In this document: positions 32,432-64,000 of the stretch, one piece after another
How the letters are laid out: every line of letters begins with the position of its first letter
Numbering within the stretch: the first letter of the stretch is position 1
Source: Streptococcus macacae NCTC 11558
Lineage (GTDB): Bacteria > Bacillota > Bacilli > Lactobacillales > Streptococcaceae
DNA: 64,000 nucleotides
Direction: 5' to 3'
Assembly: GCF_000187995.2 (NCBI RefSeq)
Contig: NZ_AEUW02000001.1
Span: 930,001-994,000, forward strand
Notes under the pieces: model-generated
Told to the model about the DNA's origin: nothing
The model's database searches: none
What the model saw: the letters and a program-made list of their open reading frames with translations, nothing else
Position numbers and translations under genes: made by a program

Positions 32432-34828
32432 TTATTTTTCTAAATGCCAAATTTCTTTAGCATATTCTGTAATCGTATCATCAGAAGTAAATTTATCTGA
32501 GTTTGCAATATTACGTAAACTCATACGCTGCCAGGTCTCTTGATCGCGATAAAGTGAATCAATTTTTTCTTGTGCTTCTACATAGGAAGTAAAGTCTTCC
32601 AAAAGGAAATATTCATCATTATGTGTTATCAGAGCCTCATAAATTTCAGTGCCTTCACTTTGGCTATTAGGAATCGTACCATTGATAAAGGTGTCTACCA
32701 CACGGCGAATGAGCGGATTGGATTCATAAACACCGCGTGAATAATAATCATGGCTTTCATAATGCCGGTAGACGTCATCTTTATTCATACCAAAGATAAT
32801 GATATTATCATCACCGACTTCATCTTTAATTTCAATATTTGCACCATCCAGCGTTGCCAGCGTAATAGCTCCTGTCATCATAAACTTCATATTAGAAGTC
32901 CCTGAGGCTTCTTTAGAAGCTAGTGAAATCTGTTCGGATACATTGGCTGCTGGAATAATGAGTTCTGCTAAACTGACATTATAGTTTTCTAAGAAAACAA
33001 CTTTGAGTTTCCCTTGAAGAGAATCATCATGATTGATAAGATTAGCCAGTTCGTTAATCAATTTAATGACAGATTTCGCAAAATGATAGCCCGGTGCTGC
33101 TTTAGCGCCAAAGATAAAGACTCTAGGAACCATATCTTTATCTGGATTATCTTTTAGATCCCAGTACAATTTGATAATATGCAAAAGGTTTAAAAGCTGC
33201 CGTTTGTATGCATGCAGCCTCTTTACTTGGACATCAAAGATCGCCTCGGTAGAAACATCAATACCTGTTGTTTCTTTAATATAGGCTGCTAATTTGGCTT
33301 TGGCATCCTGTTTGACACGGTAGAAAGTATTGAGAACAGCTTGATCATCTACAAATTCATTTAATTTTCGCAATTCATGAATATCTTTGCGCCAGTTCTT
33401 GCCGATAGTCTGATCCAGTGCTTTCGAAAGCTCCGGTGCTGCAATCTGTGTCCAGCGGCGCTGAACGATACCATTGGTCTTATTGTTAAATTTTCCGGGA
33501 TAAAGCATGTAAAAATCATGCAGTGTATCTTCTTTAAGCAATTCGGTATGAAGCTTAGCCACACCGTTAACAGAATGCCCGCCAATAATGGCAAGATTGG
33601 CCATGTGGATCTGATTATCTTTAACAATCCGTGTATTTTCAATGATCTGCGGATCAATCCCTTTTTGCGCCAGACCCGCTACAAAACGGTTGTCTATTTC
33701 AAGAACAATTTGGTAAACACGGGGAAGAACATGCTTGAAAAGCCCAGCATCCCATTTTTCCAAGGCTTCTGAAAGAATAGTATGATTGGTATAACTCATG
33801 GTTTTAACCGTGGTTTCCCAAGCTTGATCCCATTCCAGTCCATATTCATCTACTAGTAAACGCATGAATTCGGCAGGAGCTACTGCTGGATGAGTATCGT
33901 TAGTGTGCACTGAAACTTTTTCATGGATCTTCTCAAGCGGCAGCCCTTGCTTCAAATAAGATTTGATAATCGTTTGAAGTCCTGCACTTGTCATAAAGTA
34001 TTCCTGAATCAAACGCAATTCTTTTCCTTCATAATTAGAATCATCTGGATAAAGGATAGCTGTAATATTTTTAACACGGCGGCGTGATTCTAAAGTGGGA
34101 TAATCCAGTTCATATTCTTCAGGGATTTCAACATCCCAAAGGCGAAGATTATTAATATTGTCATTACCGTAACCGATTTGCGGGACATCATAAGGGACAG
34201 CACGAAGAACCTGCGCGCCGTCATAAACAGGAACGATACGTCCTTCTTCATTGGCCTGTAGATAAACATTCCCAAAAAGTTTTACTTCAACGGTATCATG
34301 ATCTTTACGTGTCTCCCAAACATTGCCAACAGAACCAAACCAAGAGTCAGGAAGCTCAACCTGATAGCCATCAACTATCCGCTGCTTAAAGAGGCCGTAT
34401 TTATAGCGAAGGCCATTGCCAAAACCTGGATAGCCTGTTGTCGCCAGCGAGTCCATAAAAGCAGCGGCTAGCCGGCCTAATCCGCCGTTTCCCAATGCCA
34501 TATCATGTTCGGCATTTTTTACTAGTTCAAAATCGACACCTAGGTCTGTAAATCCTTCCTTAACTGTCTCTAGAATCCCTAAATTCAAAAGATTTGTTTC
34601 AAGCATCCGTCCAGGAAGAAATTCAATGGAAAAGTAATAAGCTACTTTTTGCTGTTTTTCTGAGATATTTCGATTTCTTTCCAGCCATAGCGGTGTGTAA
34701 TATTTACGAATAACTTTTGCTAAGGAAGCAAAAAGTTCCGTTGGTGTGGCCTCAGCTACTTTGATTAACTGTTCTTCATGAAGAGTATCTTTAAAATCAC
34801 GAATAAATTTTTCTTTTGTTAATTGCAT
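32432..34828 (-). CDS. glgP: Glycogen phosphorylase of the glg operon
   Basis: 798 residues. Releases glucose-1-phosphate from alpha-1,4-glucan ends using pyridoxal phosphate. The PLP lysine is Lys648 in ASGTSNMKFMMTGA; the upstream signature [12 protein letters not shown] and the N-terminal [15 protein letters not shown] are intact. Last gene of glgB-glgC-glgD-glgA-glgP, 30 bases after glgA. It has an N-terminal extension compared with the second phosphorylase encoded at 59304-61580; the pair probably divide labour between stored glycogen (this one) and imported maltodextrin. Confidence 0.96.
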   Translation of the reverse strand: MQLTKEKFIRDFKDTLHEEQLIKVAEATPTELFASLAKVIRKYYTPLWLERNRNISEKQQKVAYYFSIEFLPGRMLETNLLNLGILETVKEGFTDLGVDFELVKNAEHDMALGNGGLGRLAAAFMDSLATTGYPGFGNGLRYKYGLFKQRIVDGYQVELPDSWFGSVGNVWETRKDHDTVEVKLFGNVYLQANEEGRIVPVYDGAQVLRAVPYDVPQIGYGNDNINNLRLWDVEIPEEYELDYPTLESRRRVKNITAILYPDDSNYEGKELRLIQEYFMTSAGLQTIIKSYLKQGLPLEKIHEKVSVHTNDTHPAVAPAEFMRLLVDEYGLEWDQAWETTVKTMSYTNHTILSEALEKWDAGLFKHVLPRVYQIVLEIDNRFVAGLAQKGIDPQIIENTRIVKDNQIHMANLAIIGGHSVNGVAKLHTELLKEDTLHDFYMLYPGKFNNKTNGIVQRRWTQIAAPELSKALDQTIGKNWRKDIHELRKLNEFVDDQAVLNTFYRVKQDAKAKLAAYIKETTGIDVSTEAIFDVQVKRLHAYKRQLLNLLHIIKLYWDLKDNPDKDMVPRVFIFGAKAAPGYHFAKSVIKLINELANLINHDDSLQGKLKVVFLENYNVSLAELIIPAANVSEQISLASKEASGTSNMKFMMTGAITLATLDGANIEIKDEVGDDNIIIFGMNKDDVYRHYESHDYYSRGVYESNPLIRRVVDTFINGTIPNSQSEGTEIYEALITHNDEYFLLEDFTSYVEAQEKIDSLYRDQETWQRMSLRNIANSDKFTSDDTITEYAKEIWHLEK

Positions 34829-34858
34829 GATATTCCTTTCCCTAAAATAAGACCTAAC

Positions 34859-36289
34859 TTAGACAAGTTCTCTATATAAATGTTCATAAGCCTGACTGGC
34901 TGTATCCCATGAAAAATCAGTCGTCATAGCACTTTCCTGCAGCTTCTTCCAGTCCTTTTCTCTGTTATAGTAAACATCCAAAGCTTTTGCTAAGGTTCTA
35001 GTCAGCCAATAACCTGAAAATTCTTGGAAACCAAAGCCAGTCCCTGTTTTGTCAAATTCATTATAAGGAATAACTGTATCACGCAGACCTCCTACTTCAT
35101 GTACAAGAGGAAGACTGCCGTAGCGCATAGCCATCATCTGCGAAAGGCCGCAGGGTTCAAAAGCACTTGGCATTAAGAAAATATCACTGGCTGCATAAAT
35201 CTGCTGAGCCAAGGTCAAATCAAACATGATATTAGCAGACATTTTCTCAGGATAGGCTTGAGCAAACCATGAAAAAGCATTCTCAAATTCGGCATAGCCT
35301 GTTCCCAATAAAACAAGCTGAATATCCATCTGCATCATGGCATTGAGTTCATTGACAACCAGATTAAAACCTTTTTGATCTGTCAAGCGAGAGACAACTC
35401 CAATGAGAGCAACATCATCACGCACCGGCAAACCAAGCTGCTCCTGCAAGGCTGCCTTATTTTTTGCTTTGCCTGATAAGTCATCTTTTGAAAAATGGGC
35501 CAGCAAATGCTCATCTGTTCTTGGATCCAATAATTCGGTATCAATTCCATTCACGATACCGCTTAACTTACCAGACTCCATGCGCATGATTTGATCAAGT
35601 CCTTTACCAAACTCAGGCGTTTGAATTTCTTGAGCATAAGAGGGAGATACAGTCGTCACACGATCAGCATAAAGAATAGCAGCCTTCATCCAATTTAGGC
35701 AGTCTCTCCAGCGCAAGGTTCCATCCCAATAACGCTCTTCGCCAACACCAAAGACTTCTCCTAAAAGAGAAGGAGCAAATTGACCCTGAAATTCAATATT
35801 ATGAATGGTAAAGACCGTTTTAATCTTTTGATAAGCATTAATCCAGTGGTACTTTTCCTTCAGCAAGAAAGGAATCATAGCAGTATGGTAATCATGAACA
35901 TGCAGTATATCTGGAATAAAATCAATCTTCTCCATCGCTTCCAATGCTGCTAACTGAAAGAAAGCAAAGCGTTCACCGTCGTCAAATTCTCCATAAACCT
36001 GACCGCGGTAAAAATAATGATTGTTATCAATAAAGTAAAAATCAACACCGTCTTTGACCGTATGTTTGATACCAACATATTCATGACGCCAGCCAACATT
36101 CGTAAAGAAATAGAAAAGATCTTCTATTTCTTCACCAAATTTAGCATCAATACTGTCATAATAAGGAAGGATAACACTTACTTCATTTCCCTTTTTAACC
36201 AGAGATTTAGGCAATGCACCAATCACATCACCTAAACCACCTATCTTAGCAAAAGGGGAGCCTTCTGCCGCTACAAATAAAATTTTCAT
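34859..36289 (-). CDS. glgA: Glycogen synthase (ADP-glucose)
   Basis: 476 residues, GT5 family. Transfers glucose from ADP-glucose to the growing alpha-1,4 chain. The ADP-glucose-binding [13 protein letters not shown] (residues 15-27) and the C-terminal catalytic [14 protein letters not shown] motif (near 377-390) are both intact. Its ATG shares one base with the glgD stop, so it is coupled. Confidence 0.97.
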
Positions 36290-37419
36290 TATACTATATC
36301 CTCAACAACCTCACTTGTTTTTCCGATAACAACAGGATTTTCTTTGCTTCCTCGAATCGTCACTCCTGCTGCAATACTGACATTTTTATCAATAATCGCA
36401 TTTTCCACAACAGCTCCTTCACCAATCGTAACTTTAGGGAAGATTATACTGTTTGTAACCTGAGAATTAGCCGAGACTCGGCAATTACGCGAAATAATTG
36501 AATGCTCAACAGTTCCTCGCACAATACTTCCTGAAGCAAACTGAGCATTTTTAACAGTTGATTCCCTTGCAAAATAAGTTGCTTCTTCATTCTTAACTTT
36601 TGTATAAACTTTTTGATTAGAATAAAGCAATGAATAGAACTTTTGAGGATCCAGCATATCCATATTCGCTTTGTAATAAGAGCTGACCGAAGAGATATTA
36701 GCCAGATAGCCAGTGTATTCAAAAGCAAGGGCTTTATCTGCCACTGCTAAATCACGAAGCAAAAAGCGAAGATTCTGAGGCTCATTTTTTTCCATCTCTT
36801 TTTCAATTTGTTCAATCAGCCAAGGTGTGCTGATAACATAAATGCCTGCTGACATCTTTTCAACCGGATTAGAAGCCTCAAATTCTCGGCGTCCAACGAC
36901 AGAATCTGTCTCGTCAATTTCCAAAATATCATTAGCTGCAGAAATAGACTCAGCCGGTAATTTTTTATAAACCACTGTCATGTGACGTTCATTCGCATTA
37001 TGCAAATGGATAACTTGCTCTAAATCAATATTACAAAGAATATCACTGCTCATATAAACAGTCAAATCTGAACCTGAGCGTTTGAGATAGGTTAAAATCT
37101 GATCATAATATTCTTCATCAGCATAAACACTGTCTTCTCTCGTATTATAAAAACCAAGAAAATAATGACTAAGAAGTGTATTTAATCCCCATTCACGGCC
37201 GCTGCGGATATGATCAAAAATAGAGCGAATATTTTGTCCGCGAAAAATACCATAGACACTGCGGATACCTGCATTAGCTAGGCTGGATAATTGAAAATCA
37301 ATTAAACGGTATTTGCCATCAAAAGGCAAACTAGCCAAAGGACGTGTATCTGTCAGGCCTTTCATTTCAGGAAAACCAATAGCACTCCCGAGAATTGCAG
37401 AATATTTATCAATCTTCAT
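36289..37419 (-). CDS. glgD: Glucose-1-phosphate adenylyltransferase GlgD subunit
   Basis: 376 residues. Paralogue and partner of GlgC. The N-terminus lacks the GGxGTRL nucleotide-binding motif (it has [11 protein letters not shown]), consistent with a non-catalytic, modulatory role as known for Firmicutes GlgD. C-terminal left-handed beta-helix repeats ([20 protein letters not shown]) are present. Overlaps the glgC end by 11 bases. Confidence 0.95.
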
Positions 37420-38548
37420 TTGGAACCCCCACTACTTCATTATATCCAATAACTTGAACGTCATCTGTGCCTTCAATTTCAACACCTTCGCCAATTTTAG
37501 CCCCTTCACCAACAATGGCTCGCCTTATTTTAGCTCCTTCGCCAATCACAGCACCGCTCATAATAAAGGAGTCCTTAATTTCAGCTCCCTCTTTAACCTG
37601 AACATTTGTTGAGAGAATAGAATGTTCAACCTTGCCAGATACAAAGCAGCCATCTACAACAAGCGAGTCTTTTACACTGGCCTCGTCTGCGATAAAGTTT
37701 GGCGGTGCAATGAGGTTTCTGGAGTAAATCTTCCAGGAACGGTCACGGCTGTTGAGCTCATTATCTTCACCAATATACTCCATATTAGCTTCCCAAAGCG
37801 ATTCAATAGTACCAACATCTTTCCAGTAACCCTTGAAATTGTAAGTATAGACACGATCGCCAGATTCAAGATAGGCAGGGATAACATTTTTACCAAAGTC
37901 AGACATGTCAATGTTATTTTTTTCGGCATCTACCAGCATATTGCGCAGACGGCGCCAGTTAAAAATATAGATTCCCATAGAAGCTTTTGTGGATTTGGGA
38001 TGCTCAGGTTTTTCTTCAAACTCAACGATTCGATCATTAGAGTCTGTGTTCATAATCCCAAAGCGGCTAGCTTCTTTAAGAGGAACATCGATAACAGCGA
38101 CTGTCAGACTGGCTAGATTATCTTTATGAGTTTGCAGCATGTCATCATAATCCATTTTATAAATATGATCTCCAGATAAGATCAAAACGTATTCTGGATC
38201 AATACTGTCAATATAATCAATATTTTGGTAAATAGCATGGCTGGTCCCTTGGAACCAACGGTTTCCTTCTGTTGCTGAATAAGGCTGCAAAATAGTTGCT
38301 CCAGAATCAATACCATCAAGACCCCAGCTAGAACCATTTCCAATATGGCTGTTAAGCGCCAAAGGCTGATATTGAGTGATTACTCCGACATTATTAATTC
38401 CTGAATTAGCACAATTAGAGAGAGCAAAATCGATAATACGATAGCGTCCTCCAAACTGTACAGCAGGTTTGGCAATGCTTTGTGTCAGTTTTCCAAGACG
38501 TGTTCCTTGCCCTCCAGCAAGAATAAGAGCTAACATTTCATTCTTCAT
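37409..38548 (-). CDS. glgC: Glucose-1-phosphate adenylyltransferase catalytic subunit
   Basis: 379 residues from the ATG at 38548, which has AAGGA eight bases upstream; a six-codon longer frame has no RBS. Makes ADP-glucose, the committed step of glycogen synthesis. GGQGTRLG is at residues 12-19, followed by [15 protein letters not shown]; the C-terminal beta-helix hexapeptide repeats ([21 protein letters not shown]) are clear. Lies 24 bases after glgB. Confidence 0.97.
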
Positions 38549-38572
38549 ATAATCTATCCTTCCCAAGTTACC

Positions 38573-40459
38573 TTATTTTCTTAAACGACGTTTAATTTTC
38601 CAAATACTTGCTCCTAAAGCAGGCAGCGTAAAACAAAGTGTATTTTCATAGTGCTTCCACAATTCTTTTTGTGTCTGCACAGTTTCATTATGTTCTTTCC
38701 AAACACCACCGTATTCTTCAAGCTCTGTATTCCATATCTCTTCATAAATTCCTGCAAGCGGAACACCTATTTTAAAATGGCGGCGTTCAACAGGTACCAT
38801 ATTAAAAATACAAATCAGCATATCTCCTTTAGCGTCTTTACGAATAAAGGATAAAACACTTTGATCAACATTATCTGCATCAATAATTTCAAGGCCATCA
38901 TAGCTTAGATCAAGCTGCCATAGTGCTTTATGATCTTTATAAAACTGATTGAGCTTACTTGTGAAGGTCTGCATTTTGAGGTTGAGTCCATCTTCTTCCT
39001 CAAGATTGCCCCACTCAAGAGCTTGATCATACTTCCATTCTAAAAACTGACCAAATTCACTTCCCATAAAAAGAAGCTTCTTTCCTGGATGGCACATTTG
39101 ATAAGTGTAAAGATTTCTCAAGCCTGCAAACTGATTATAGCGATCTCCCCACATTTTATGCATCAAACTCTTCTTACCATGTACAACCTCATCATGTGAA
39201 AAAGGTAAAATAAAGTTTTCTGAGAAGAGATACATAAAACTAAAAGTCACTAAATTAAAATCGTATTTACGATAAATAGGATCCTCTTCATAAAATCTAA
39301 GCAGATCATTCATCCAGCCCATATTCCACTTATAATCAAAACCCAGACCTCCTTCTTCACGACGGCCCGTGATTTTAGTTGAAGCTGTTGACTCTTCCGC
39401 AATCATCATGACATCTGGATGAGCTAGTTTTAAGACTGTATTTAAACGCTGTAAGAAATAATAACCTTCTAAATTACGATTGCCGCCTTCTTGATTAGGC
39501 TGCCAGGGGCCTTCATCATAATCTAGATAAAGCATATTGCTGACAGCATCCACGCGGATACCATCAATATGATAAAAATCAATCCAAAATTTAGCACTAG
39601 AAATCAGAAAAGACTGGACTTGATTTTTGCCAAGATCAAAATTCAAAGCTCCCCAACGATAATTATGCGCTCTATCATGATCCTGATATTCAAAAGTTGC
39701 TGTCCCATCAAAATAAGCTAAGGCATCATCATTTTGTGTAAAATGTCCTGGAACCCAGTCCACAATGACACCAATATTGTTAAGATGACAGGCTTCTACA
39801 AAGTCCTGAAATTCCTCAGGGCTGCCATAGCTGTGTTCTAAAGCAAAGAAGCCCATCAGCTGATAACCCCAGCTCATTCCCAGAGGATGAGCCATTAATG
39901 GCATAAACTCAACGTGAGTATAATTCATCTTGACCAGATAAGGAATCAGCTCCTTTGTCAATTGTGCAAAAGTATAAGGGCTGCCGTCTTCATTTTGATT
40001 CCAAGATCCGGCATGCACTTCATAAATAGATACCGGCCTATTAAAGAAGCCCAATCGTTTACGCCGTCCCAACCAAAGGCCGTCTTTCCATTTTTTTTCG
40101 GGAATGGTTCGAATCAACGCTCCCGTACCAGGACGATCTTCCAAATAGACAGCAAAGGGATCCATTTTTTCAACGACCTGACCGCCTTGTCTTTTGACAA
40201 GGTATTTATAAATCTGTCCCTCCTTAGGCAAATCTGTAAAAACTTCCCAGACACCGGCTTCGTTTTTTACCATTTGTATAGGATGGTCAGACCAGTCTGT
40301 AAAATCACCGATCAAATGAAGATCCTCAGCATTTGGTGCCCAGACTCTAAATACATAGCCAGCCAGTCCGTTTTTTTCGGCTTTATGAAAGCCAAAATAA
40401 TGCTGAGCATGAAAATTTTCTCCTGTACCAAATGTTCTGAGAGCCTCTTTTTCGTTCAT
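38573..40459 (-). CDS. glgB: 1,4-alpha-glucan branching enzyme
   Basis: 628 residues, GH13_9. Introduces alpha-1,6 branches in glycogen. N-terminal CBM48 (about 20-115), then the TIM-barrel with nucleophile Asp304 (GIRVDAV), acid/base Glu355 (IAEES) and the third acid in [14 protein letters not shown]. An exceptionally strong RBS (AAGGAGGTGA) precedes the ATG. First gene of the glg operon. Its nearest promoter appears to lie inside the 3' end of pulA. Confidence 0.97.
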
Positions 40460-40525
40460 CCTGTCACCTCCTTAACATTTGTCTTAGCTAGGCAGCGGTC
40501 ACTGAAAAGTCCTTTAAAAAAAGAA

Positions 40526-40552
40526 AAATAACCCAAGTAAAACTTGGATTAT
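40526..40552 (-). terminator. Terminator overlapping the pulA stop, within the glg leader
   Basis: AATAACCCAAG (40526-40536) pairs with CTTGGATTATT (40542-40552), one mismatch, 5-base loop; TTTCTTTTTTT follows on the minus strand. It ends pulA transcripts but lies between the predicted glg promoter and glgB, so it may also act as an attenuator. Confidence 0.7.
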
Positions 40553-42864
40553 TTTTTTAATTCAAAGACCGTAGCTGACAAAAATTCAAATTGACTTTTC
40601 AGTTTATGTAAGCGTTTTACATTTGTTAATATTATATCATAATTTTCGTATGCTGTCATATCAATTTGGGAATTTTTTCCACGGTTATTAAAAATTAATT
40701 TGAAGGTTTTGCTGCCACTGCTGATTGTAGCAGCCACTAAACCAGAACCATATTCAGCTGATTCAACATAGATGTGCTTGCGAATATCTTCAAAGGTCTG
40801 ATAAGAAAAAACAGCTTCTTTCGTTTTAAGGGCAATGAGCTTTCTGACAAAATCAACAGTTGATTTATAAAAAGTAACATTGTTCCAATCAACCTGATTA
40901 ACCTCATCTGGTGCGTTGTAACTATTCATAGCACGCTGCCTATCTTCCTCTGTTATCTCTCCATCAGGCCCTGTAGGAAAAAGTTTTGTTCTTAAAAATT
41001 CTTGCCCTAATTCTATAAAAGCGACTCCTTGCATAAGTATTCCAAGACTTGTAGCCAGCTCTACACGCTGAACATGGACATCTTGGCTGTCCTTAGAATT
41101 CAAAACCCACAGAAGGTCATTTAAATTGTAATTATCATGTGCTTCCACATAATTCACTACCTGAGTTGGCCTAAGATAAGGTGCTAACTCATCACTCCCT
41201 AAGAAGGCCTTAGCAATTTTGTCTTCCCTAGCTTCTCCAGAAACAAAACCTCTTTCAAAATCCCCATACACTTCTGCCCCTTTAATAGCATTGCGTGCAT
41301 CATCGTTAAAAAAGCCAATACGAGGCATTTGAAAAGCATTTTCTTTTTTAGCCTTATTTTCCGGCATAAGACCAGTTCCCATATCCCAGCCCTCACCATA
41401 GAGCAAGATATTAGGGTCTACTTCATCGACGGCCGATCGGATAGCATTCATTGTTTCGACATCATGCAGCCCCATCAAATCAAAACGAAAACCATCAATA
41501 TTATAAGCGTGAATCCAATACAAAATAGAGTCAATCATATATTTTCTGAACATCTCTTTTTCACTGGCTGTTTCATTTCCGCAGCCAGATCCATTCTGAA
41601 AGGAACCATCACTGTTCATACGGTAATAATAATCAGGAACAGCCAACTGAAAAGCTGAATCATAAGATGAATAGGTATGATTGTACACCACATCCATAAT
41701 GACCCCAATCCCCGCTTCATGATAAGCCTGAATAAGCTGTTTCAATTCTAAAATACGGGCAGTCGGAGCATGCGGATTGCTTGAAAAACTAGCTTCAGGC
41801 ACATTGTAATTTTCAGGATCATAGCCCCAATTGTAAGCATAGCTTCCATCATCATTAAAACTTTGATGATGATCGAAAACCGGCTGCAGCTGAACATAGC
41901 TAATGCCTAAATCCTTGAGATAATCAAACGTTGTCTTATCTCCATAAGCATTTTTAGTCCCTTTTTCAAAAGCACCTAGAAATTTTCCGCGGTTCTCCTG
42001 CCGAACACCTGAGGTTGCAGATTTTGAAAAATCACGAATATGCATCTCTGTGATGACCGCCTGAGCAGGGTTACTAAGACGCCAAAAAGCTTCTTTGCCT
42101 TGTTTAACCGTAAAACCTGCAGGAGTCAAGTCAGCATCAGCAATCACAATAGAACGCTGCCCATTAGCTGTAGTCGCAATAGTATAAGGATCTCTTGTCG
42201 TTCTAAAAGTCTTGCGTCTATAATAAACACGGTAAGAATAGGCGTGATAGTTTAAGTCCTCATCAACTGTTAAAGACCAAACGCCATGGGTATTTTCGTC
42301 ATGGTTATCAGGTGCTCTGCGTCCGCCGCGTTTCATTTTCAATACTTTAAGAACACTGGACTTTTCATCTGTGGACCTATAAATAATCAACTCGACTTTC
42401 TTCGCTGTCGGAGCCCAAAGGCGAAATTCAGTAGCTTCTTTACGGTAAGAAAAACCAAGCCAGCCTTGAAAGCCCCATTCATGATCAAAGCGCTGAAAAT
42501 TAAGAGCTGGATCAAAAGCATGAGGCTGGCGCTGACTGTAAGCATGACTGGCTACAGCTGCCTGTCTGGAATAGTATAAGGTATCGTCTCCCTGTACAAT
42601 CCAAACTTCTCTTTTTGTTAAGCCAGGATCACAATTAATCCGAAAATCAGGCGTTCGAGTAGACCAGTCGGCATTTTTTACAATAAGGTAGACATGGTTT
42701 TGAAATTGATCTGACTCATAGCTTAAATTACCGACAATTCCAAAACTATCAAAACGTGAGAAAAAAGCATCTTTTCCCATATGACCTTCTAGCCACTGCC
42801 ACATATTAAGGTCAAAATAATTGCCATTATTACTGTGGTAGTGGACAACGACAGAATTTTTCAT
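40549..42864 (-). CDS. pulA: Type I pullulanase, intracellular
   Basis: 771 residues, GH13_14. Hydrolyses alpha-1,6 branches in pullulan, glycogen and limit dextrins. No signal peptide, so cytoplasmic. An N-terminal carbohydrate-binding-like region (residues 1-100, HYHSNNGNYFDLNMWQW), then a CBM48-like domain (about 130-235), and the catalytic barrel with the type I signature YNWGYDPENYNVPE near residue 345, the nucleophile in FRFDLMGLHD and the acid in LYGEGWDMG. Starts within the dagK stop (4-base overlap), so it belongs to ligA-dagK-pulA. Works with GlgP on glycogen. Confidence 0.95.
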   Translation of the reverse strand: MKNSVVVHYHSNNGNYFDLNMWQWLEGHMGKDAFFSRFDSFGIVGNLSYESDQFQNHVYLIVKNADWSTRTPDFRINCDPGLTKREVWIVQGDDTLYYSRQAAVASHAYSQRQPHAFDPALNFQRFDHEWGFQGWLGFSYRKEATEFRLWAPTAKKVELIIYRSTDEKSSVLKVLKMKRGGRRAPDNHDENTHGVWSLTVDEDLNYHAYSYRVYYRRKTFRTTRDPYTIATTANGQRSIVIADADLTPAGFTVKQGKEAFWRLSNPAQAVITEMHIRDFSKSATSGVRQENRGKFLGAFEKGTKNAYGDKTTFDYLKDLGISYVQLQPVFDHHQSFNDDGSYAYNWGYDPENYNVPEASFSSNPHAPTARILELKQLIQAYHEAGIGVIMDVVYNHTYSSYDSAFQLAVPDYYYRMNSDGSFQNGSGCGNETASEKEMFRKYMIDSILYWIHAYNIDGFRFDLMGLHDVETMNAIRSAVDEVDPNILLYGEGWDMGTGLMPENKAKKENAFQMPRIGFFNDDARNAIKGAEVYGDFERGFVSGEAREDKIAKAFLGSDELAPYLRPTQVVNYVEAHDNYNLNDLLWVLNSKDSQDVHVQRVELATSLGILMQGVAFIELGQEFLRTKLFPTGPDGEITEEDRQRAMNSYNAPDEVNQVDWNNVTFYKSTVDFVRKLIALKTKEAVFSYQTFEDIRKHIYVESAEYGSGLVAATISSGSKTFKLIFNNRGKNSQIDMTAYENYDIILTNVKRLHKLKSQFEFLSATVFELKK
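40606..40659 (-). promoter_or_regulatory. Predicted glg operon promoter inside pulA, with a cre-like palindrome
   Basis: Minus-strand -35 ATGACA (40654-40659), 17-base spacer, extended -10 TGATATAAT (hexamer 40631-40636). Immediately downstream, at about +2 to +18, lies the palindrome ATGTAA-AACGC-TTACAT read on the minus strand (40606-40622), resembling a LacI-family/CcpA site with one extra base. It sits within the last 40 codons of pulA. Confidence 0.55.
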
Positions 42865-47870: not shown

Positions 47871-48389
47871 CTATTGTTTAAAATTAATATATCTAGCTAA
47901 CTTATCCACAACAATAGCGCCAACAAGCAAGGAAGCCAATTCGCCGACTGCTGTCGTAAACCAAGTCAAAAGAAAAGGTAACTTTAAGATCACATGCAAT
48001 TCCCAAGCAATCGTCACCATACTAGCAGCAAAAAAGAGGGAAAAGAAGAAGAAACCTTTATTTATCAGCCCTTTAAAAAGATAGGAATGACAGTATTTTT
48101 CAAAAAATAAAACACCTAGGGTTAAAAAGACCAGGGTTGAGCCGCCACCTACTATAACATCAATTAAGCCCAGACTTTGAGGACTGATGGCATTAGCAAT
48201 CATACAGCCAAGCGTCACACCGATAATGTATTTCCGATTATAAAAGGCTAGAAAATTCATCATTTCAGAGATACGAAATTGATAAGCACCGTAAGAAATG
48301 GCATTTAAAGGGGGCATTGCAGTTAAGACAACATAAATAGCTGCAACAAGCGCTATTTGCGTCATATCACGTAGAGTTAAATTTTTCAT
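47871..48389 (-). CDS. queT: QueT-family queuosine-precursor transporter
   Basis: 172 residues with about five membrane helices; no soluble domain. It matches the QueT family (COG4708), the substrate-binding S component thought to import preQ0/preQ1 for queuosine tRNA modification using an ECF energising module encoded elsewhere. The preQ1-II riboswitch directly upstream independently supports the substrate. No queuosine synthesis genes are near, consistent with salvage. Confidence 0.92.
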   Translation of the reverse strand: MKNLTLRDMTQIALVAAIYVVLTAMPPLNAISYGAYQFRISEMMNFLAFYNRKYIIGVTLGCMIANAISPQSLGLIDVIVGGGSTLVFLTLGVLFFEKYCHSYLFKGLINKGFFFFSLFFAASMVTIAWELHVILKLPFLLTWFTTAVGELASLLVGAIVVDKLARYINFKQ

Positions 48390-48396
48390 TCTTTTC

Positions 48397-48452
48397 TCCT
48401 TTAGCGGCTTAACCGCTTATAATATGCTTGACCAAAGGCAGGAAGTGTCAAG
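48397..48452 (-). promoter_or_regulatory. preQ1-II riboswitch controlling queT
   Basis: On the minus strand: P1 stem CTTGAC (48447-48452) with GTCAAG (48427-48432); then CATATTA; the extra hairpin GCGG-TTAAG-CCGC (48404-48416); and AAAGGAG (48397-48403), whose AAAGG can pair with CCTTT in the P1 loop to form the pseudoknot. AGGAG is the queT ribosome binding site, so ligand binding would hide it and block translation. All parts match the class II preQ1 aptamer known from Streptococcaceae. Confidence 0.93.
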
Positions 48453-48473
48453 GGCTGCTAAAGCAACTCATCT

Positions 48474-48482
48474 AGTATAGCA
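48474..48482 (-). promoter_or_regulatory. Extended -10 promoter of queT
   Basis: Minus-strand TGCTATACT (hexamer 48474-48479) with no clear -35; transcription would start about 15 bases before the riboswitch. Confidence 0.5.
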
Positions 48483-48512
48483 TATTTCTTAGGATTTTGA
48501 TATAGTAATACT

Positions 48513-59256: not shown

Positions 59257-59291
59257 AAAAAAGCTACTCCTTGCTTTAGGAGTAACTTTTT
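59257..59291 (-). terminator. Terminator after the malQ-glgP frame
   Basis: AAAAAAGCTACTCC (59257-59270) pairs with GGAGTAACTTTTT (59279-59291), one mismatch, 8-base loop, followed by T's on the minus strand. Confidence 0.75.
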
Positions 59292-59303: not shown

Positions 59304-62300
59304 TTATAAACTATGCCAAATATCTTGGTCATACTGTTCAATCGTTCGGTCTGATGAGAAGAAGCCAGCCTTAGCAATATTGTGAACAACCTTAGTATTC
59401 CAAATATCTTGGTCTTCATAATCTGCTAGCATTTTTTCTTTTTTAGCAATGTATTCTTTCAAATCAAGTAAAGTCATAAACCAATCTTTATTGATAAGCT
59501 CATTATAAAGACGTTCTAAGCGGTCTTTCTTTCCATGGGCCAGAAGATCATCACTAACAATAAAGTCCACTGCTTCTTTGATCAGAGTATCATTATTGTA
59601 ATAGTCTTTAGAAGTATAGGTCCCTTTATCATATAAATCAATAACCGTATCTGAATCTTTACCAAAGATATAAATATTATCCTGACCAACTAAATCCGCA
59701 ATTTCAACATTGGCACCATCCATCGTTCCCAGTGTCAAAGCACCATTAAGCATGAATTTCATATTACCAGTACCAGAGGCTTCTTTTGAAGCTAAAGAAA
59801 TCTGTTCTGAGATATCTGTAGCTGGAATCAGTTTTTCAGCCACTGTTACATTATAGTTTTCAACAAGGAAAACGTTCAAATAAGGACTTACTTGCGGATC
59901 ATTGTTAATTAGCTCAGACAAACAAAGAATCAAATGAATAATATCTTGAGCAATAGTATAAGCCGGTGCTGCTTTACCACCAAAGATAACTGTTATTTTA
60001 CGTTTTGGCAAATGGCCTTTTTTGATTTCAAGATATTTATGAATGACATAAAGAGCATTCATTTGCTGACGTTTGTACTCGTGGAAACGTTTAATTTGGG
60101 TATCAATAATAGAATTTTCATCTAGTTCAATCCCTTTGTTTTCCTTAAGGTAGCGTTTAAGTGCTTTCTTATTGCCGTATTTAATCTCAGCTAATTTTTT
60201 ATGGACAGCCTTATCATTTGCAAAAGCATCCAGATTTTCTAATTCAGTTGCATCTTTTAGATAGCCATCACCAATCAGCTCTTTAATATAAGCTGCTAAG
60301 TCCTGATTAGCAAACTCCAGCCAGCGCCGGAAAGTAATGCCATTGGTTTTATTGTTGAATTTTTCAGGATAAATATCATAGAAAGCTTTCAATTCACTAT
60401 TTTTAAGGATTTCCGTATGAAGAGCCGCAACACCATTGACACTTGTCGAAAAGTGAATATCCATATGAGCCATATGCACTCGATCATCTCTGTCAATGAT
60501 TTGCACAGCTTCATCCTTATATTCACTGCGGATGAGGCGGTCTAAATGTTCTATAATAGTTACCAAATGCGGAACAACTTCATTTAGATAGTCTAAAGGC
60601 CACTTTTCAAGGGCTTCCGCCAAAATAGTGTGATTGGTATAACCAACCATATTTTTTACAATATCAACTGCTTCATAAAAATCAAGGCCATGCTTTTCAT
60701 TGAGCAGACGAATAAGCTCAGGAATGACCATGGATGGGTGAGTATCGTTGATCTGCACATAAGCATAATCTGCCAAATCATGAAGATTTGAGCCACGTTC
60801 AAGCGCTTCATCAATCAAAAGCTGGGCAGCATTAGAAACCATAAAGTATTGCTGATAGATCCGCAGTAACTCACCATTTTTATCAGAATCATCAGGATAC
60901 AAGAAGAGGGTCAGGTTCTTTTTAATTTCTGTCTTATCAAAAGTAATGCCGTCTTTAATCAACCCATAATCCAATCCATCAATATCAAACAAATTCAAAT
61001 AATTTTTTCGATCTTGATGATAGCCTAAAATATCAATACGGTCTAATCTAGACTTAAGGGTAAAGTGGCGGAAAGGCACATCATAAGAAATATTGGTCGG
61101 AATCAGCCAAGAATCGTCCTCAATCCAGTAATTAGGCTCAGCTTCCTGCTGGTTGTTCCGAAAGACTTGTTTAAAGAGACCGCAATGGTAGTTTAGCCCT
61201 ACACCTTCACCATTAATACCAAGCGTTGCCATAGAATCAATGAAACAAGAAGCCAAGCGTCCTAAACCGCCATTACCAAGCGAGGGTTCCAATTCAACAT
61301 CTTCTACCTGACTGATTGATTTTCCAGCAGCTGCCAGCTCTTCCTTGACTGTCTTATAAATACCAAGATTGATCAAGTTATTAGATAACAGTTTTCCAAT
61401 CAAGAATTCCGCAGAAATATAGTACACTTTACGCTTAGAATCATTCTTAGGCAAATCTTCTGCCCTTTCTTGAACATAATGCAGCAACTGAGTATAAATC
61501 GCTTCATTGCTCAATTCAGATAAGTTTTTATCAGTTTTTTCTGAAACGTATTGCGTAAAGGTCTTCGTCTTTGTTAACATGTCTTCATTTCCTCTTTGAT
61601 ATAATGTCGTTAATCTGCTTAAAAAAGCTTTCTTATCTTTAGTCAAATCTTCAGAGCGCATTCGCCACTGCCAATTTCCGCCAATGGTAGATGGGATATT
61701 CATTCGAGAGCTTGCCGGTTTATTGAGCAAATCCTGCATGGTCAAAATAGCTGTATTGCTGACACTAGCAAAAAGCAGACGCAGCATAGCTTTGTTAACA
61801 GGTTCAATAGGCTTGCGATTGCTGTAAGCATCAACAAACTCCTGCTGATCTGTAGTTAGATTGTCATACCAGCCATTGACCACCTCATTATCATGGGTCC
61901 CAATATAGACCACACTGTTAGGAACACAATGATGAGGCATATCAACACTGTGGCCAGTCAAATCATAAAAGCCAAATTCTAAAATTTTCATACCAGGAAA
62001 ACCGGTATCACGCAGCAATTTCCGTGCTTTATCATCAACATAGCCCAAATCTTCAGCAATAATTGGCAAACTGCCTAAGGCATTTTCGACAGCTCTGAAA
62101 AGAGCAAGTCCTGGTCCTGGCTGCCAACTGCCATTCTTGGCTGTTTTGGAATCACCTTTGATTTCCCAAAAATCTGAAAAGCCTTTAAAGTGATCAATCC
62201 GCAAAATATCATAAATTTTAAAGCTTTCCTGAATGCGGTAAATCCACCAGGCAAATCCTGTTTCTTTATGATTGTTCCAATCATAAATAGGATTTCCCCA

Positions 62301-63080
62301 AAGCTGACCTTCATCACTAAAATCATCCGGCGGACAGCCTGCTACTGATAAAGGCTGTAAAGCTGTATCTAGTTTAAAGAGCTCTGGCATAGTCCACACT
62401 TCAACACTGTCTTTAGCTACATAGATAGGCATATCACCAATAATTTTAATGTGGTGCTTATTGGCATAAGCTTTCAGCGCCAGCCACTGTTCAAAGAAGA
62501 AATACTGAGTTACCTTATAATAATCAATCTTATCAGATAGCTGACGGCGATAATAAACTAAACGTTCTTCATCACGCTGAATCGCTTTTTTATCATCCCA
62601 TTCTTGCAGCGCTTTATAGCCAAAGTGCTCTTTTATAGCCATAAATTCTGAAAAATCTGCTAACCAAGAACTGTTTTCCTTTTCAAAAAGAGCTAATTTT
62701 TTAAGATTTTCTGCATCTGCTAAGAAATTTTTAACTGCCTTCTCTAAAATCGGACGGCGCACCTTAAATAAGAGAGCATAATCAACAAGCTCTTCATTTT
62801 CCCCAAAAGAAACATGACGGTAATCGTCTTCCTTTAAGAGATTTTGTTTTTTCAACAAATCAAAGTCAATAAAATTCACATTACCAGCTACTGCTGAAAA
62901 AGATTGGTAAGGAGAATCACCATAACTAGTCGATGTTAAAGGCAACAGCTGCCAGTATGTCTGAGAGGTTTCCTTTAAAAAGTCCACAAAATGATAAGCT
63001 TCCTGACCAAAAGTACCGATACCAAATTTCCCCGGCAGAGAACTGATATGCATTAAAATACCGCTTGCTCGTTTTTCCAT
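59304..63080 (-). CDS. malQ-glgP: MalQ-GlgP fusion: 4-alpha-glucanotransferase joined to maltodextrin/glycogen phosphorylase
   Basis: One open frame of 1258 codons from the ATG at 63080 (AGGAGAAGG upstream). Residues 1-500 are a complete MalQ (GH77; [20 protein letters not shown] start, catalytic acids in RIDHFKGF and IAEDLG, and IGTHDNEV). Residues 501-1258 are a complete 758-residue phosphorylase starting MLTKTKTF, with PLP site [14 protein letters not shown]. Normally these are two genes. The junction ...LYQRGNEDM has no linker, and AGAGG still lies ten bases before the internal ATG at 61580, so free phosphorylase could also be made. In the next frame TGA occurs in AAATGAAG at the junction, so a single-base indel explains the fusion. 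A sequencing error is possible. Confidence 0.88.
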
Positions 63081-63117: not shown

Positions 63118-63146
63118 AGTATAACGCAATCGCTTGCACAAGTCAA
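63118..63146 (-). promoter_or_regulatory. malQ promoter with MalR/CcpA-like operator in the spacer
   Basis: Minus-strand -35 TTGACT (63141-63146), exactly 17 bases, -10 TATACT (63118-63123). The spacer is filled by the near-palindrome ACGCAATCGCTTGCAC (63124-63139), a LacI-family operator like those bound by MalR; binding would block RNA polymerase. Confidence 0.75.
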
Positions 63147-63196: not shown

Positions 63197-63226
63197 AAAA
63201 AAAACTAGGGGAAACTAGCTTTTTTT
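63197..63226 (-). terminator. Probable terminator overlapping the malR stop
   Basis: AAAAAACTAG pairs with CTAGCTTTTTT around a GGGAAA loop, with further T's on the minus strand. The stop codon (63215-63217) lies in the stem. Confidence 0.5.
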
Positions 63227-64000
63227 GAGATTGCGAACACTCTCGCGTTCTTTTAAGGTAAAAGGCACCAGCACCTTCTGATTATTTTCTGAACTATCTT
63301 CTATCTTTTCCAATAAACAATGCAGGCTGGTTCTGCCCAGACGGCTGACATTAATATCAAAGGTCGTTAAATAGGGATGTAAAAGTGTGGCATAACTGGA
63401 GTTATTAAAAGAGATGAGAGATATATCTTCTGGTACCGCTATATCATAAAAAGATAAAAATTGAATAACTCTAATTGAGATAACATCGCCAATAATGACC
63501 AAAGCTGTTATATTTTCGTTTTGAATCCTTTCAATAAAAGCCGCCAAAGTAGTAGCCTTTTTAGAGTCAAAAAGAGCGCTCTGATAAGAGCTCAATCGCA
63601 AAGCCTGCATTCCTTTTTGATAGCCTTTGTAGCGCTCAGTATAGATATCGCTGCTTTGATCATTAGTCACAAATAAAATGTTTTCATGCCCCTTGCTGTA
63701 AAGATAATCAACAGCTGTTTTTGCCATCAGCTGATTATCATTATCAATATAAGTGGTTTCGTTTTCAAGACCAGCAGGTGCTCCGATAATAACGAAAGGA
63801 ATCTCATTTTCCATGAGATAGCGGCGTACAGGATCTTTTCTTTCTGAATAAAGAACAATAAAACCATCCACTCGCTTTTGCCGGTGCATTAACTGCACTT
63901 GATCTTTTAAATCCGCCATCGTATCACTGGTTGCAATAGAGACCGTAAACTGATTTTGCGTTGCTTCATCATTAATGGCCGTTAGAATCTCCATGAAAAA
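63215..64000 (-). CDS. malR: LacI-family regulator, MalR-like (5' end outside window)
   Basis: 262 codons visible, still open at the right edge; the first visible ATG (63994) is internal. This is the periplasmic-binding-protein-like effector domain of a LacI/GalR repressor: MHRQKRVDGFIVLYSE, DYLYSKGHENILFV, DISLISFNNSSYATLLHPYLTTFD. The N-terminal helix-turn-helix should lie just beyond the window. Position next to malQ/glgP and the operator in their promoter indicate MalR, the maltose/maltodextrin repressor. Ligand is inferred. Confidence 0.85.
   Translation of the reverse strand, partial: FFMEILTAINDEATQNQFTVSIATSDTMADLKDQVQLMHRQKRVDGFIVLYSERKDPVRRYLMENEIPFVIIGAPAGLENETTYIDNDNQLMAKTAVDYLYSKGHENILFVTNDQSSDIYTERYKGYQKGMQALRLSSYQSALFDSKKATTLAAFIERIQNENITALVIIGDVISIRVIQFLSFYDIAVPEDISLISFNNSSYATLLHPYLTTFDINVSRLGRTSLHCLLEKIEDSSENNQKVLVPFTLKERESVRNLKKS

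Follow-up and report, generated by a model that had tools for sequence, protein, structure and literature searches.

A single open frame for MalQ and GlgP in Streptococcus macacae, with retained start signals for the phosphorylase

The window, i.e. the whole stretch of 64,000 nucleotides of Streptococcus macacae that was analysed, contains at 59304-63080 on the reverse strand a single open frame of 1258 codons, whose translation has a terminal stop and no internal ones. As the sequence-only reading of this DNA had claimed, 500 codons for MalQ run here without a stop into 758 codons for GlgP, and both Pfam domains are present (Table 1). On the given sequence the fusion of the two frames is real, and two catalytic domains lie in one open frame. 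Residue 501 is a methionine and lines up with the N-terminus of GlgP where the latter is a protein of its own; the computed masses are 144.8 kDa for the fused protein, and 57.8 and 87.0 kDa for MalQ and GlgP apart. In the ORF list, the frame reaches back as far as a TTG at 63146, for 1280 amino acids; the ATG at 63080, which has a Shine-Dalgarno sequence of its own, is the likelier start.

Table 1. Features of the malQ-glgP locus and a second phosphorylase gene of the window.
Feature	Position	Strand	Basis or remark
MalQ half (GH77 4-alpha-glucanotransferase), residues 1-500	61581..63080	-	PF02446, NF011078, motifs
GlgP half (GT35 alpha-glucan phosphorylase), residues 501-1258 and stop	59304..61580	-	PF00343, TIGR02093, motif
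GlgP own start ATG	61578-61580	-	
AGAGGA, likely ribosome-binding site for the internal GlgP start	61590..61595	-	relatives' letters, 16S tail duplex
Junction, shorter by one base next to the glgP ATG than in five relatives	61577..61590	-	DNA alignment with L142-L145 and L149
Promoter-like TTGACT-17-TATACT 5' of malQ	63118..63146	-	hexamer search
GCAAGCGATTGC, candidate MalR/LacI-type operator	in the spacer of the promoter-like site 63118..63146	-	
LacI-family regulator gene 5' of malQ	63215..63994	-	start at or past the window end
Terminator-like hairpin directly 3' of glgP	59258..59291	-	14-pair stem, T-rich tail
Second GT35 phosphorylase of the genome	32432..34828	-	in the glgB-glgC-glgD-glgA-glgP glycogen cluster, 32432-40459

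Both halves cover their families almost from end to end. The Pfam profile Glyco_hydro_77 matches residues 10-479 with 563 bits (profile positions 1-464 of 465) and the profile Phosphorylase residues 583-1256 with 839 bits (positions 2-712 of 713). In a search of NCBIfam at E 0.001, which returned 14 families, the separate models for 4-alpha-glucanotransferase and for glycogen/starch/alpha-glucan phosphorylase were above their cut-offs (NF011078 with 914.5 bits versus 776 over residues 1-500, TIGR02093 with 880.4 bits versus 552.9 on the GlgP half), and none of the 14 spans both halves. The motifs RIDHFKG, AEDLG and THDN, which carry the three catalytic acids of GH77 enzymes, are found at 294, 342 and 395 in alignment with solved GH77 enzymes, and residues 2-498 of the MalQ half align with PDB 6m6t as well as with other solved members of the family. 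Residues 2-758 of the GlgP half align with PDB 4l22, which we take to be the S. mutans enzyme; the motif GTGNMKF at 1103, the PLP-binding lysine motif of GT35 phosphorylases, is identical in this structure. Judged by profile coverage and motifs, the MalQ half is a full-length GH77 enzyme, with disproportionation predicted from the S. mutans homologue as described in the accessible part of the study on that organism (PMC3737437), and the GlgP half is a full-length GT35 enzyme with predicted phosphorolysis and dimer formation. It is very improbable that decay has set in with the fusion and that a single half still works. Fusions may impair folding in general, but both halves are of full length with their catalytic motifs, the fused frame is the sole match of the GH77 profile in the genome, with no second MalQ found by this profile, and S. 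mutans needs malQ to grow on maltose according to the same part of that study (PMC3737437).

The covalent association of MalQ and GlgP is predicted by the frame. An AlphaFold model, which was restricted to residues 60-1258 by the size limit of 1200 amino acids and built from 35 aligned rows, has a mean pLDDT of 77.6 and a pTM of 0.56; given this pTM, the model is usable for the joint and not for the mutual placement of the halves. Confidence drops below 50 at residues 498-504, which fits a short and flexible joint.

The surroundings resemble those of the malQ/glgP operon of S. mutans, which has the same two enzymes in the same order with malR upstream, as far as the available text of the report goes (PMC3737437). 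The open frame upstream of malQ has LacI-family matches, every one under the equivalog cut-offs, and its counterpart in genome G127 (L222) is 75% identical; by position and homology it is probably the malR counterpart, and the order of LacI-type regulator, malQ and glgP is found in the window. The hexamer search gave 25 promoter-like sites versus 16.0 expected in shuffles, which is no evidence on the hexamers alone. In the spacer of the site upstream of malQ, GCAAGCGATTGC is a possible MalR/LacI-type operator, judged from its sequence and from the MalR-binding consensus that the same source gives for the region upstream of the S. mutans malQ (PMC3737437). The hairpin behind glgP is the longest of nine found (3.0 expected in shuffles). 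Elsewhere in the window, the glycogen cluster glgB-glgC-glgD-glgA-glgP is accompanied by a type I pullulanase gene upstream (32432-42864, reverse strand). The only element found by an Rfam search of the window is a preQ1-II riboswitch above the gathering score (48387-48484, reverse strand), which is unrelated to malQ-glgP and lies upstream of an open frame of 172 amino acids (47871-48389) that had no NCBIfam match at E 1e-20.

The two genes had been said to be separate in related streptococci, and this is borne out by the comparison of the junction with the mutans group that had been proposed along with it. By its place on the tree, the window comes from a relative of this group. In the four nearest loci of the tree, presumably members of this group (L142-L145, from genomes G127, G176, G042 and G043; the best identity is 88% over 1248 columns, to L142), malQ and glgP are in different frames and malQ ends 17-29 nt inside glgP. 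For S. mutans, the portion of the work at hand gives an overlap of 29 nt and deals with MalQ and GlgP as two proteins (PMC3737437); in the window, malQ and glgP are one frame rather than two overlapping genes in different frames. The letters before the glgP ATG are GAAGAC in the window versus GAAGAAA in L142-L145. The window is thus one base shorter beside this ATG, and the two genes come to share one frame. An error in sequencing or assembly, with a true junction that is one base longer (or shorter) and with two distinct, overlapping genes after the S. mutans pattern, would undo the fusion: a one-base difference decides the state, the junction was read from a single assembly of the one genome of the species, and the frames are separate in all four nearest loci. 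However, no homopolymer stands at this site in the window, where, in addition, a C takes the place of an A. Moreover, malQ stops at the relatives' positions (+17, +23 and +29) are absent from the window, the next stop in that frame being at about +50 (counted by hand), and the change is therefore more than a slip in a homopolymer. The genome is assembled as one contig with a completeness of 100. In 400 kb of G127 with 277 open frames of at least 150 amino acids, 11 match the window at more than 60% identity, glgP included, and all of them are unbroken. Finally, the same fusion is present in other genomes. We thus regard an error as unlikely, while the single genome of the species leaves some room for it.

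The start signals of glgP are retained within the fused frame, as had been noted from the sequence alone. The AGAGGA lies 9 nt upstream of the codon for Met 501; it is also found in L142, L144 and L145, and L143 has AGGGGA, with separate genes in all four. In one of them, L145 (G043), GAGGAAATGAAGAAAATGACA is present in tandem, i.e. the stretch with the ribosome-binding site and the start is duplicated, and glgP has two consecutive start signals. For the duplex with the 16S tail, the predicted energy is -8.2 kcal/mol at the internal start of the window; it is -9.2 at the start of malQ in the window, and -8.2 to -9.5 at the glgP start of five streptococcal relatives whose genes are separate. 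Among the 33 ATGs within malQ, five have a stronger pairing (-8.3 to -15.8), and all five are out of frame. The strength of the pairing therefore does not identify a start by itself, and the argument for an internal start rests on its position and retention. These signals support the earlier idea that both a fused and a free phosphorylase may be made. The internal start, buried inside a translated frame, may be weak.

A start codon is kept in most of the fused loci found elsewhere. In 24 of 26, the stretch of 32 codons about the GlgP start holds an ATG, 0-18 nt from the equivalent of residue 1; elsewhere in the fused frames, an ATG occurs in 1346 of 2837 stretches of 32 codons (47%) and in 137 of 2837 stretches of three codons (5%). 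The other two loci, L146 and L130, have no in-frame ATG, GTG or TTG in these 32 codons, yet their GlgP frame is open, and the fused form therefore probably supplies their GlgP. L146, from genome G005, is the diverged second fusion in Streptococcus, in which GlgP would be made from the fused protein only, as far as the start codons tell. In the 18 fused Pasteurellaceae, the GlgP methionine is invariant and the residue before it takes eight forms. This is suggestive of selection for keeping the GlgP start, and suggestive only, since eight other positions among the 25 examined around the joint are invariant as well and the 18 are kin. The pairing before the internal ATG is -5.1, -4.3, -2.5 and -8.8 in the four fused Pasteurellaceae tested, weak in three of them, and -9.3 to -13.5 in four fused Clostridia; the values for L146 and L130 refer to a methionine farther upstream and were excluded.

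The sequence-only reading had taken the fusion for a new arrangement. This view is not supported: G005 has the same in-frame join, and so have 18 Pasteurellaceae genomes out of 140 and, by reading of the frames, 6 of the 20 distinct Clostridia loci in which the two genes are neighbours. Together with the window, these make up 26 fused loci among the 164 distinct ones where malQ and glgP adjoin, in a set collected via similarity to the window protein. Of 197 Streptococcus genomes sampled, 196 had a match, and two of the 49 both-gene matches among the matches listed were stop-free, those of the window and G005. The same two were the stop-free ones among the 16 full-span matches listed for a sample of the order (395 genomes, E 1e-200). 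A match was found in 131 of the Pasteurellaceae genomes, the 18 being full-span and stop-free, and at E 1e-290 in 143 of 299 genomes of a Clostridia family, with four full-span and stop-free. In a sample of the phylum (398 genomes, E 1e-200), six had a match and the frame was fused in the window only. When the frames were read in 31 Pasteurellaceae loci with the two genes side by side, 18 proved fused and 13 separate. These figures are not a frequency because the loci were chosen, covering all 18 fused genomes and part of the 17 genomes in which a separate GlgP lies close by (nine pairs and four further loci); L211, which has no adjacent pair, was excluded from the count. One of the six fused Clostridia, L095 of the Lachnospiraceae, has a TAA inside GlgP, by decay or by error. 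Ten further candidates (G038, G187, G404, G594, G629, G344, G479, G585, G563 and G779), with search frames of 1286-1597 amino acids, were rejected upon reading of the DNA, in which their GlgP frames of 758-782 amino acids are unfused to MalQ. Comparable frames of 1620-1672 amino acids in five other Clostridia genomes (G918, G720, G943, G748 and G769) are taken at the level of the search.

It is probable, at about 0.7 by our own estimate, that a small change at the junction put the two genes of the window into one frame and that the locus now yields a tethered MalQ-GlgP as well as free GlgP, and no free MalQ. An already overlapping malQ/glgP pair would have lost one base and gained a substitution beside the glgP start, giving a common frame. 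Translation from the malQ start would produce the protein of about 145 kDa and no free MalQ, and the retained internal ribosome-binding site and ATG would provide free GlgP of 87 kDa from the same mRNA. MalQ would convert maltose and maltotriose to glucose and longer chains, and GlgP, held on a very short flexible joint, would release glucose-1-phosphate from the longer chains. The single frame, both domains with their motifs, the frame shift relative to the relatives, the kept start signals and the recurrence elsewhere are seen directly; we infer that both proteins are produced, that the tethered enzymes keep their activities and that the tether is of benefit. The two enzymes need to act in sequence on maltose and maltotriose: purified GlgP of S. 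mutans attacks these sugars only in the presence of MalQ, because MalQ makes the longer chains, according to the accessible part of the S. mutans report (PMC3737437). Their plant equivalents are held in a complex. Pho1 and Dpe1 of sweet potato, which belong to the GT35 and GH77 families as well, associate into a complex with a higher Dpe1 activity; this complex phosphorolyses maltotriose and maltotetraose, two substrates that Pho1 on its own does not use, as stated in the available sections of PMC5417683; a search of the PDB found three entries (9lpw, 9lpz and 9m80) that each have a phosphorylase chain and a DPE1 chain. As is predicted for the window, a GT35 phosphorylase is joined to a GH77 disproportionating enzyme; however, the plastidial complex is non-covalent, encoded by two genes and part of starch metabolism (PMC5417683, in the same sections), whereas a single polypeptide is predicted from the frame of the window. 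By analogy, the fused protein would most likely be a covalent counterpart of the Pho1-Dpe1 complex. Other pairs of alpha-glucan enzymes that share a pathway are likewise joined in a single bacterial polypeptide: GlgX/MalQ (the bifunctional model NF011083 of NCBIfam) and, in the part of PMC11046441 that was at hand, MalQ-GlgB of Neisseria suica and TreS-Mak. MalQ is present in two of these three, as in the window, but their partner is a debranching, branching or trehalose enzyme rather than a phosphorylase. No description of a MalQ-GlgP fusion was found in the open-licence PMC literature, searched largely below the level of full text. The fused frame of the window belongs to a recurrent pattern and is a variant of a known enzyme pair, real but modest, and not a new kind of system.

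How the fused state came to recur bears on what the tether does. In a tree of 76 MalQ and GlgP rows, 19 of them fused, there are at least ten changes of state, a soft count since the search was quick, 17 forks are open and some branches are long; gain and loss are indistinguishable. The trees were made from 76-77 chosen rows out of all loci. The first dropped L001 (the window) and L010 for their length; in the second, L032 (the same gene) represents the window, and L168 and L172 are omitted as duplicates of L086 and L096. On the tree, the fusions of Pasteurellaceae and Clostridia are changes of state separate from that of the window, and they share with it the order of the domains, a short joint (10-27 residues by the aligner's ends versus 5 in the window) and, for the most part, the internal ATG; they have 1246-1258 amino acids between the MalQ and GlgP match ends. 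In Pasteurellaceae, all three frame relations of malQ and glgP occur, with runs of A at the junction from fewer than four to eight. Within Rodentibacter, the run of A that precedes the ATG is A6 in L067, which is fused, and A7 in L118, which is separate; there is one substitution in addition. Somewhat short of an even chance, the tether may be neutral: overlapping genes would drift between frames by small indels, GlgP would come largely from internal initiation and MalQ would tolerate its partner. The at least ten changes of state, the variety of frame relations and A-runs, and the retention of an internal start by 24 of the 26 fused loci speak for such drift. On the other hand, the joined part is a whole enzyme of 758 residues, and L146 and L130 probably depend on the fused form for GlgP. 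More tentatively still, the junction may be a recurrent frame switch operated by small indels, with several independent origins and an internal start under selection, that gives a tethered enzyme and free GlgP from one mRNA as a bacterial, covalent equivalent of the Pho1-Dpe1 metabolon. Fused and separate pairs in closely related species are a ready-made test of whether tethering makes the pathway faster or is neutral. For annotation, the locus teaches that two products can hide within a single long open frame.

The Pasteurellaceae rows of the tree, 22 in number and drawn from the loci L067, L069-L073, L080, L084, L115-L118, L197-L210 and L212-L216, nest in a Streptococcus/Gemella clade beside rows of S. 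suis and S. azizii, which suggests a transfer of malQ/glgP between phyla. One of these rows, L073, comes from a record with the title Pseudomonas stutzeri NCTC11607; its neighbour on the tree is Aggregatibacter and its genome, G202, is in the sample of the family Pasteurellaceae, and the record therefore looks mislabelled.
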